The translations under genes were made by a program, and so were the position numbers. A model generated the notes under the pieces. It was not told the DNA's origin. It saw only the letters and a list, made by a program, of their open reading frames with translations, and did no database searches. Below, in pieces: positions 8,358-12,916 of a stretch of 64,000 nucleotides of DNA (the stretch's first letter is position 1; each line of letters opens with the position of its first letter). This stretch comes from Teichococcus aerophilus (lineage in GTDB: Bacteria > Pseudomonadota > Alphaproteobacteria > Acetobacterales > Acetobacteraceae). The DNA is taken from the NCBI RefSeq assembly GCF_014490485.1, contig NZ_JACTVA010000014.1, forward strand, positions 1 through 64,000. The letters are read 5' to 3'.

Positions 8358-8377
8358 TGGAATAGAGGGGTCGTTTC
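8358..8377 (+). repeat. Isolated iteron-like sequence
   Basis: TGGAATAGAGGGGTCGTTTC matches the iterons downstream of the rep gene (TGGAATAGACGGGTCG at 12864) at nearly every position. It is about 3 kb from the main origin cluster, outside any gene. It may be a remote Rep-binding site or a relic. Confidence 0.5.
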
Positions 8378-11316: not shown

Positions 11317-11493
11317 GGGAATCGACGGGTCGTTTTCTCTCTATGCCTTCTCTGCCGCCAGACCAATTGCGTTTCGGGTGGTGGAAAAGCGGGAATCGCA
11401 GGGTCGGTATGACGGCCTTACCGACCGATTCGGCGGCTTTCGGCGGCGTTGGAGTCGCGGGACGCCGCCTTTCGGGAATCGTGGGGTCGCTTT
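11317..11493 (+). repeat. Three dispersed iterons of the replication origin
   Basis: Direct copies at 11317-11336 (GGGAATCGACGGGTCGTTTT), 11391-11410 (GGGAATCGCAGGGTCGGTAT) and 11474-11493 (GGGAATCGTGGGGTCGCTTT). They are spaced 74 and 83 bases apart and point toward rep. The invariant core is GGGAATCG-N2-GGGTCG. Confidence 0.8.
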
Positions 11494-11555
11494 AGGTCGT
11501 CGTAGAAGCCGCTTCTGAAGCTGCCAGAGGCTATCCGAGCCGGTTTTGCACACAC

Positions 11556-11564
11556 TTATCCACA
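11556..11564 (+). promoter_or_regulatory. Perfect DnaA box
   Basis: TTATCCACA exactly matches the strong DnaA-box consensus. It lies between the dispersed iterons and the AT-rich segment, the usual architecture of iteron origins. A one-mismatch box on the minus strand (TTGTCCACA, 13078-13086) lies downstream of rep. Confidence 0.75.
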
Positions 11565-11570
11565 GAGGCG

Positions 11571-11645
11571 GTCAATCAGTGTCTGATTCTAGAGTCTATT
11601 AAGTAAAGTCTATTCCAAAATTCTTCGTTCATTTTCAATGGATTA
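11571..11645. other. AT-rich segment, probable DNA unwinding element
   Basis: About 75 bases markedly richer in A and T than the surroundings. It contains a direct repeat of AGTCTATT (11590-11612 region), an inverted repeat AATCAGtgtCTGATT at its left end, and AAAATTCTTCGTTCATTTTC. It sits between the DnaA box and the tandem iterons. The unwinding role is inferred from this position. Confidence 0.6.
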
Positions 11646-11652
11646 ACGCGGT

Positions 11653-11735
11653 GTTCCGACCCTTTCCTTCCCGCTTCCGACCCCTTCCTTCCCTAAACCG
11701 ACCTCTCCGCTCCCGAAACCGAACCTTTGATTCAC
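11653..11735 (-). repeat. Four tandem iterons with exact 21-bp period
   Basis: Reverse-strand iteron copies begin at 11653, 11674, 11695 and 11716. Examples on the + strand are GTTCCGACCCTTTCCTTCCC and AAACCGACCTCTCCGCTCCC. They diverge more from the consensus than the outer copies. The exact 21-bp phase (two helical turns) places Rep monomers on one face of the DNA. Confidence 0.8.
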
Positions 11736-11767
11736 TTCTCCCCCGGACCATCCACCGCCATGTGCCT

Positions 11768-11808
11768 CAAGCGACCCGTCCGCTCCCCAAAGCGACCCGT
11801 TGATTCCC
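11768..11808 (-). repeat. Two further tandem iterons, 21-bp phase
   Basis: CAAGCGACCCGTCCGCTCCC at 11768-11787 and AAAGCGACCCGTTGATTCCC at 11789-11808, on the same strand as the preceding block and 21 bases apart. The second copy is closest to the outer iterons. They probably overlap the rep promoter region. Confidence 0.8.
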
Positions 11809-11852
11809 TGATGCTGCACGCCGCGCCGTGAAGTGCTAGGTTGCCGGGCCCT

Positions 11853-12851
11853 ATGGGAATTGAAGGGTCGGAATCGGTGGTAGTGGCAGTGAGCGGTGGA
11901 CAGGAACTGACGGAGGCCGAACGCAAGCGCCTGGAGCGCTTCGAGCGTGCCAAGGCCAACCGGCGTGGCCGCAAGGCGCCGACCGTCATGCCGGCCCGCC
12001 TTGCCCGCACCTCGGCCTTCGCCCCCCGCAAGAAGGGGCTGATCACCGATAGCGGCTTCCAGCGCCTCTACGTCGTCCGCCCCCACACGGTGGTGGAAGT
12101 GCGGGGCAGGGAACTCGGTTCGCAGCATCGCGATGCCCTCTACGCCCTGTTCCGCATGCGCGCGAAGCGGACGGAAATGGCGCCGCAGACCGGCGCCCGA
12201 CCCCTGCCTTACTACCACACCGAGACCACTTGGCGCTCGCTGCTCTCCGCTACGGGCCGCACCGCGCATGTGAACAACCTCGGCACCATGCTCCGGGTCT
12301 TCGAGGAGCTGCGCTCCGTCAGCTTCCGGTTCTACCAGGGCGACTTCGCCCAGTACGAAGCCGCCAGTCAGAGCGGCCGCCTCGCCGCCGCAGGCTACTC
12401 CGACAACCTGCTCGGGCGCATCGAGTGGGACGGCATCACCCTCGATTCCCGGGTGAAGGTGGCCTACGGCGAATGGGTGCGCGACATGTTCGAAAGCCGC
12501 ACCCTCGCCAGCATCGACGGCGAAACGTACTTCAAGCTGCGCTCCGACTACGCCAAGGCCTTCTGGCCTTTCATCGATTCCCAACCTGACTACACCTGGG
12601 TGCCAGTTGAGACCCTCGCCGAGCTGGCCGGGCGTGACTACAAGGCCGAGACTACACGCCAGCGCCTGAAGTTCCGCGAGGAATGCCGCCAGGCCTTCGA
12701 GGACATGGTCAACGCCGGCGGCTTGGCATCCTGGACCTGCGAGGAAACCGGCAGCGGCCGCGCCAAATCCTACCGCTACCGCTATGTGCACGCCCTGCCC
12801 AAGCAAGGCAGCCTCGCCCTCAGCGCCGCCCCGGACGATCGTGACGCCTGA
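11853..12851 (+). CDS. Replication initiator protein (Rep, TrfA-like)
   Basis: About 333 residues, cytoplasmic. The N-terminal 45 residues are basic (ERKRLERFERAKANRRGRK), a likely disordered or DNA-contacting arm. The core LARTSAFAPRKKG, then RELGSQHRDALYALFRM and LLSATGRTAHVNNLGTMLRVFEEL, resembles the order of elements in TrfA and related iteron Rep proteins, which carry two winged helices. A second wing-like region is near TRQRLKFREECRQAFEDMV. The assignment rests mainly on context: iterons on both sides, a DnaA box and an AT-rich segment. The start is uncertain: ATG 11853, or GTG 11877 or 11883 where GAAGGG could serve as Shine-Dalgarno. No parA or parB lies beside it. Confidence 0.82.
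   Translation: MGIEGSESVVVAVSGGQELTEAERKRLERFERAKANRRGRKAPTVMPARLARTSAFAPRKKGLITDSGFQRLYVVRPHTVVEVRGRELGSQHRDALYALFRMRAKRTEMAPQTGARPLPYYHTETTWRSLLSATGRTAHVNNLGTMLRVFEELRSVSFRFYQGDFAQYEAASQSGRLAAAGYSDNLLGRIEWDGITLDSRVKVAYGEWVRDMFESRTLASIDGETYFKLRSDYAKAFWPFIDSQPDYTWVPVETLAELAGRDYKAETTRQRLKFREECRQAFEDMVNAGGLASWTCEETGSGRAKSYRYRYVHALPKQGSLALSAAPDDRDA
11855..11874 (+). repeat. Iteron overlapping the start of rep
   Basis: GGGAATTGAAGGGTCGGAAT lies directly after the probable ATG at 11853, in the opposite orientation to the six tandem copies. Binding of Rep here would block its own expression, a common mode of plasmid copy control. If translation starts at the GTG at 11877, the site overlaps the ribosome-binding site instead. 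Confidence 0.7.
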
Positions 12852-12863
12852 AGGCTTCCTGAC

Positions 12864-12916
12864 TGGAATAGACGGGTCGGATTGGCCTGGCGAAAGTGGA
12901 ATGGACGGGTCGTTTT
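12864..12916 (+). repeat. Two iterons downstream of rep
   Basis: TGGAATAGACGGGTCGGATT at 12864-12883 and TGGAATGGACGGGTCGTTTT at 12897-12916, 33 bases apart, starting 13 bases after the rep stop. Both share the GGAAT-N4-GGGTCG core and point away from the gene. Iterons on both sides of rep are unusual but known, and could act in handcuffing or incompatibility. Confidence 0.75.

Follow-up and report, generated by a model that had tools for sequence, protein, structure and literature searches.

We find that the region at 11.3-12.9 kb of the stretch analyzed here (64,000 nucleotides, hereafter the window) very probably comprises an active replication origin, together with the gene for its initiator, that drives a large (~430 kb) secondary replicon in a Roseomonas-type bacterium. 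As judged from its sequence, there is strong support for an iteron origin of a secondary replicon, which we read as autoregulated and as belonging to a megaplasmid or chromid with ParAB; replication, binding by the Rep protein and control by methylation are its predicted activities. This reading is supported by the layout of the sequence, its conservation, the replicon context, the resemblance of the modeled Rep fold to known initiators and a peak of GANTC sites.

Iterons flanking the rep gene

Seven exact and five degenerate copies of the motif GGAAT-N4-GGGTCG, in both orientations, flank a gene for a 324-residue protein (rep, 11877..12851, forward strand) and lie on both sides of it. A pattern search confirmed the arrangement given in the preliminary description, with three dispersed forward copies, six reverse copies at 21-bp phase in two blocks, one copy at the rep start and two after the stop; direct repeats clustered next to the gene for an initiator are what is looked for in an iteron-type origin. 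The three forward iterons (11318..11332, 11392..11406 and 11475..11489) are all exact, and when compared among seven aligned orthologous loci the first and third are exact in every one, while the second keeps its position in all seven with one mismatch in two of them. On the reverse strand, block 1 (11657..11734) holds four copies, at 11657, 11678, 11699 and 11720, in 21-bp phase and with one to three mismatches, and block 2 (11772..11807) holds two copies 21 bp apart, at 11772 (two mismatches) and 11793 (exact). The copy at 11793 is exact in all seven loci and the one at 11772 is not general. Another forward iteron, exact here and in each of the seven loci, covers the presumed ribosome-binding stretch of rep (11856..11870) and directly precedes the likely GTG start at 11877, which makes it the likely site of rep autorepression. 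Past the rep stop, two further exact copies follow on the forward strand (12865..12879 and 12898..12912), the second of which is reversed with one mismatch in L024.

The exact sequence GGAATNNNNGGGTCG occurs only ten times in the whole 5.66-Mb genome, with eight copies on the contig of the window and seven of these inside 11318-12912. The reverse copies have 0-3 mismatches across 11 fixed bases, the weakest being that at 11699 (three mismatches, read by eye), and degenerate copies weigh only by their phase and their conservation in relatives because GGAATNNNNGGGTCG with up to two mismatches has 39 matches in the 64-kb window against 23.7 expected.

For the upstream alignment we used seven distinct orthologous loci (L009, which is the window itself, L010, L013, L015, L023, L024 and L025), some of which are duplicated by L011, L012, L014, L026, L044 and L045. 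The elements kept in otherwise divergent DNA are the positions of all three forward iterons, the array of reverse copies, the terminal reverse copy and the iteron ahead of the start codon, along with eight bases of the GGAGTCGCG box, parts of the DnaA-box region and two AGTCTATT repeats. Counting iterons with no more than one mismatch, each of the seven loci has between 7 and 11 close to rep. Along the complete plasmids of two relatives, p546-1 (441 kb) has nine exact iteron sites, seven at rep and one more as the distal copy described below, and all eight exact sites of p1318-4 (320 kb) are at rep.

DnaA box, AT-rich segment and a conserved box

The preliminary description had placed a perfect DnaA box among the iterons, along with an AT-rich segment, and both were borne out. 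The box, TTATCCACA (11556..11564, forward strand), is the sole copy in 64 kb, where 0.02 would be expected; it is exact in three of the seven loci and takes the form TTATNCACA in one further locus. GC content falls to 33-35% in 60-base windows across 11570-11659, compared with mostly 55-75% across the 2.2 kb profiled. This dip contains a likely unwinding element (11582..11614, forward strand), AT-rich and made up of TCTGATTC followed by two AGTCTATT direct repeats 14 bp apart, both of which are invariant in all seven loci. The DnaA box and AT-rich region that accompany the iterons of an iteron-type origin are therefore both present in the window, the box being exact in 3 of 7 loci.

Between forward iterons 2 and 3 stands a further element, the GGAGTCGCG box (11451..11459, forward strand), which contains a GANTC site. 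In all seven loci, divergent elsewhere, eight consecutive bases out of the nine are invariant, so that the conservation extends beyond the GANTC site.

A recurring distal iteron

One lone exact iteron lies well away from the cluster, beyond an ABC-protein gene (8359..8373, forward strand). We found a single forward iteron within about 80 bp past the stop of this gene, 3.3-3.5 kb upstream of rep, in all six loci examined (the window, L044, L045, L023, L024 and L025; the seventh, L015/L026, ends short of the site), exact in three and with one mismatch in three. The surrounding DNA can be aligned among L045, L023 and L025 but matches that of the remaining loci poorly, and the site has a shifted position in the window. 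The recurrence of this distal iteron is new here, and by analogy with RctB sites outside ori2 we regard it as a candidate site for titration or handcuffing (origin pairing).

The Rep protein and its family

For rep we prefer the GTG start at 11877, the same residue as the start in the p546-1 annotation, over a longer frame from a TTG at 11841. The longer, 336-residue frame gave no match to any Pfam or NCBIfam model; a few weak profile matches (E 0.0044 or worse) were to unrelated families and are not credible. The preliminary description had suggested comparing Rep with the TrfA and RepA families, and at the level of profiles this kinship failed, with no match to TrfA (PF07042), RPA, RepC or Rep_3 (PF01051), but the predicted fold does resemble iteron initiators. 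Likewise, none of 21 members of the Rep family matched Pfam Rep_3 or TrfA or gave any credible family match, and a PDB search by sequence returned no credible match to Rep. A structure model built from 21 sequences (mean pLDDT 69.5, pTM 0.55) was compared with the PDB using Foldseek, yielding five matches with E<0.001, of which three are chains of RctB (domains 2-3) and the others R6K Pi bound to iteron DNA and RepE54. All are twin winged-helix initiators (E 1.7e-7 to 3.3e-4), but at a TM-score of only 0.39-0.50 of the query and for a model of middling quality (pLDDT 69.5). Within these limits the model is most like the iteron initiators RctB, Pi and RepE.

Rep homologues were found by tblastn on 19 plasmid records. 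In genome searches, 12 of 58 relatives had a match, as did 16 of 299 genomes drawn evenly from the order, a count that includes the own genome and one, G290, matched over 44 positions only. Among three other plasmids read, the homologue adjoins a ParA-type gene on two, p2META1 and pSR-4; in R. mucosa pSKB0092-3 no ParA gene is annotated within 6 kb of it. In-frame TGA flags in Rep relatives proved to be the natural stop in both cases checked (L017 and L018). The own genome also has a second Rep of the same family (G000:C96:11662-12606, L021), 60% identical and located on a 28.8-kb contig, with a GGGAGCA iteron and a weak ParA-type match ~4 kb away.

Literature searches turned up nothing on this Rep family, nor did the portions of PMC2680597 available to us, which concerns M. 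extorquens plasmids. RepQ, RepY and RepW, as presented in part of PMC9025767, were considered and tentatively set aside; no Sulfitobacter record appeared in the plasmid tblastn. The rrn plasmids of Aureimonas and Oecophyllibacter are described, in the part of PMC10645730 consulted, as Rep_3, a family that Rep fails to match.

The replicon that carries rep

Orthologues of Rep (93-97% identical) are found on two Roseomonas plasmids, p546-1 of R. haemaphysalidis and p1318-4 of R. marmotae, which share the neighbours of rep in the window on both sides as well as the iterons. A ParA-type ATPase and ParB stand at the start of both plasmids, the pair being ~12-23 kb from rep, and neither plasmid has a RepC, RPA, Rep_3 or DnaA match at E 0.001. 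RepC and RPA of the same genomes are on other contigs, where the Rep_3 matches fall inside RPA genes; the full DnaA is on contig C1 of both relatives, apart from the rep plasmid. A genome search for TrfA gave no match, but had no positive control. The RepC in an operon with RepA and RepB that defines RepABC is absent from the rep plasmids, which have parAB without repC, and the plasmid-type replication and partition genes expected of a chromid are present. The proposal of a megaplasmid or chromid is therefore supported by the orthologous locus on two ParAB plasmids with dnaA elsewhere. A conserved chromosomal context with dnaA on the same contig had been named as the observation that would speak against it, and what we found in both relatives is rep on plasmids and dnaA on other contigs. 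Among the cargo genes listed there, catalase and kdp were seen.

In the draft assembly the window belongs to contig C46 (94,868 bp), and synteny with either relative puts C69 ahead of it and C53 behind it. Joined in this order, the three draft contigs form a 433,758-bp scaffold (1,100 N included), which suggests that the window belongs to a replicon of roughly 433 kb. Large parts of the scaffold, including nearly all of the window from 14 to 40 kb with the kdp genes, have no counterpart on p546-1 or p1318-4. The kdp stretch itself (14300-39800) is nearly absent from both plasmids that share its flanks, as if inserted between conserved neighbours.

By similarity search, tRNA-Gly(CCC) is found only on this secondary replicon in three genomes (L053:10782-10856, L077:4769-4843 and G000:C53:88528-88602), although 5 of 17 genus members have no close copy; its placement hints at chromid status, one mark of which is core genes missing from the chromosome. 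The only other similar tRNA found in those three genomes is Gly(GCC). On another replicon, two initiator families stand side by side: of four genomes searched, three have RepC, and in all three an RPA-type initiator gene stands ~0.4 kb ahead of it (G000:C50:849-2487, G001:C4:428201-429826 and G007:C3:418980-420605).

GC skew

A check of GC skew around 11.5 kb, as called for in the preliminary description, came out differently on the complete plasmids and on the own scaffold. The detrended cumulative minimum falls at 424.5 kb on p546-1 and at 298.4 kb on p1318-4, 2-4 kb from rep. Using a two-arm skew model, the rep bin ranks 8 of 441 on p546-1 and 13 of 320 on p1318-4, with the best bins at 426 and 306 kb; the best score was reached by 0 of 300 block shuffles for p546-1 and by 12 of 300 for p1318-4, where the signal is only moderately strong. 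The switch near rep thus holds for both plasmids, but on the own 433-kb scaffold rep ranks 272 of 433 and the skew favours an origin ~180-190 kb away, whose score none of 300 shuffles attains. This contrary result may stem from the joins between draft contigs and from DNA that the relatives lack.

GANTC sites at the probable origin

The 620 bp before rep contain 6 to 10 GANTC sites across the seven loci, compared with a mean per 620-bp window of 0.39 on p546-1, 0.62 on p1318-4 and 0.66 on C46. On each of these three replicons the window with the highest count is the rep origin, as is the maximum of the 433-kb scaffold (10 versus 7 elsewhere). At the origin the density outside the iterons is still 6.6-10.6 per kb versus 0.6-1.1 overall. 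The observed counts in the seven group-A loci were reached by 0, 19, 2, 6, 5, 0 and 1 of 300 dinucleotide shuffles; 13 other Rhodospirillales loci gave mixed results (0 to 93 of 300), and there was no excess in eight Hyphomicrobiales loci and L035 (132 to 300 of 300). A CcrM-type gene with a RAMA domain was found in three of three genomes, and the frame read from L127 has DPPYNL, which we take to be the motif of a CcrM-type methylase. The GANTC peak at an iteron origin is new here, and coupling of the origin to methylation is our hypothesis from its sequence. GANTC-rich origins are described for repABC in parts of PMC11514494 and PMC6090056, the latter treating GANTC, in the sections consulted, for repABC replicons and C. 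crescentus. A search combining GANTC with iterons led to PMC6090056 and to PMC2865523, which concerns Vibrio.

Iteron type and Rep clade

We ran a de novo repeat search around 25 Rep homologues and found that in most of them the iteron has GGAAT or GGAAC. The half that follows reads GGGTCG in the clade of the window, GGGTCA in L027-L029, GGGAGCA in the C96 copy and L030-L032, GGGGCA in L017 and L018, GGGGTA in L019 and L022, a TGCCG type in L033 and L034, GCCACA in L037-L039 and CACAAG in L035. The repeats are weaker in L036, L040 and L046, GGAGG replaces GGAAT in L043, and L042 falls outside the frame. Most relatives examined therefore retain GGAA, with the other iteron half varying with the Rep protein clade. 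All three pairs of co-resident Rep genes that were read have different iterons (C46 and C96 of the own genome, L018 and L022 of G005, L032 and L033 of R. aerilata), a count that leaves out L040/L041 and the two of G323.

The six-base halves were typed by hand in a frame of our choosing. A Mantel comparison of iteron half with Rep distance over 23 loci gave r = 0.76 (reached in 0 of 10,000 permutations), and with one row for each of eight types r = 0.35 (2168 of 40,320). This set omits L035, L036, L040, L043 and L046, which fit the GGAAT frame more poorly, L035 and L043 having clear repeats; restoring the five gave r = 0.72 for 28 loci (0 of 20,000) and r = 0.36 for 12 types (130 of 20,000). 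Both sets exclude L042, which cannot be placed in the frame, L041, with 81 bases upstream only, and duplicates. Iteron type is clearly associated with Rep clade in these sequences, while graded co-change of iteron half and Rep distance appears weak. The variable half might, as a hypothesis, serve as a compatibility code.

Alternative explanations

It could be argued that the locus is a remnant of an old plasmid integrated in the chromosome or a larger replicon, with a silent iteron origin and with replication under the control of some other initiator. The skew of the own draft scaffold, which strongly marks another place, would agree with this, as would the several initiator systems in the same genomes and possible initiators of families beyond those searched. 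We nonetheless consider such a remnant improbable, given that two relatives have the locus on 441-kb and 320-kb plasmids that lack RepC, RPA, Rep_3 and DnaA matches, that GC skew marks rep on both, and that Rep and the origin elements are conserved amid divergent surroundings. Far less probable still is that the gene encodes a transcription factor for which the repeats serve as operators, without any role in replication. One site does overlap the translation start of the gene and others lie past its stop, but the modeled fold resembles RctB, Pi and RepE, the DnaA box, AT-rich repeats and 21-bp phasing accompany the sites, and homologues stand beside a ParA-type gene on two plasmids.

A different objection applies to methylation only and is quite possible, if short of our favoured account: the GANTC peak could be a by-product of AT-richer DNA and of the GGAATC in the iterons, with no methylation control. 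Origin DNA is 56-61% GC in the seven loci compared with mostly 65-74% along the plasmids, and the lack of excess in Hyphomicrobiales, the mixed outcome in other Rhodospirillales and the group-A locus reached by 19 of 300 shuffles all fit a by-product. Against it, the other six group-A loci were reached by only 0 to 6 of 300 shuffles, and the high density persists outside the iterons.

A model of the origin

Returning to an active iteron origin as the preferred reading, we infer Rep binding, DNA opening, replication, autorepression and methylation control as its activities. Rep would bind the iterons, and the 21-bp phased array would set it on one face of the helix beside the AT-rich AGTCTATT repeats, which would open with the help of DnaA and then take the helicase. 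Rep on the iteron over the rep ribosome-binding site would lead to self-repression, and titration of Rep or pairing of origins would fall to the iterons past the gene and to the distal one at 8359. Initiation would be coupled to CcrM methylation through the GANTC sites of the iterons, of the unwinding element and of the GGAGTCGCG box, and segregation would be left to the ParAB pair.

A broader proposal is tentative and somewhat doubtful, namely that Acetobacteraceae have, beside repABC, a family of iteron chromids and megaplasmids in which the GGAAT half is fixed, the other half is a clade-specific compatibility code, initiation is licensed by CcrM and origins are counted through the distal iteron. 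If true, the clade-specific half would let several such replicons coexist, and licensing by CcrM would parallel that by Dam at Vibrio ori2. The series of iterons is also ready-made material for studying site recognition by an initiator, and with the GANTC peak the coupling of an iteron origin to the cell cycle can be tested in a system other than Vibrio. If iteron origins drive replicons of 300-440 kb in Alphaproteobacteria, such replicons escape recognition by initiator, because 18 of 19 plasmid records annotate Rep as a hypothetical protein (the other lists no feature).

Comparison with known systems

Iteron plasmids of the Rep_3, Pi, RepE and TrfA kinds have iterons about two helical turns apart, a DnaA box, an AT-rich region and an iteron at the gene start. 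The window locus has that layout and the Rep model resembles Pi and RepE, but none of the 21 family members matches Pfam Rep_3 or TrfA, and the iterons of the window point either way and stand both before and after the gene. With repABC replicons the rep plasmids share ParA and ParB genes of RepA- and RepB-like length on the same plasmid and a GANTC-rich origin; in contrast, they are without RepC, their initiator is ~12-23 kb from parAB, and they have iterons rather than an origin inside repC. According to the part of a review consulted (PMC6090056), chromids are of iteron types or repABC types, with the latter exclusive to Alphaproteobacteria.

The origin is also similar to Vibrio ori2 and its initiator RctB, domains 2-3 of which are the best fold matches of the Rep model (E 1.7e-7). 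As outlined in the sections of PMC6090056 seen, ori2 likewise has a single DnaA box, an AT-rich element, iterons holding adenine-methylation sites and initiator sites outside the core. The fold alignments show 11-12% identity, and there is no PDB match by sequence. Unlike ori2, the window origin is alphaproteobacterial, with GANTC in place of GATC and with 15-base iterons phased at 21 bp where ori2 has 12-mers spaced by 10 or 11 bp.
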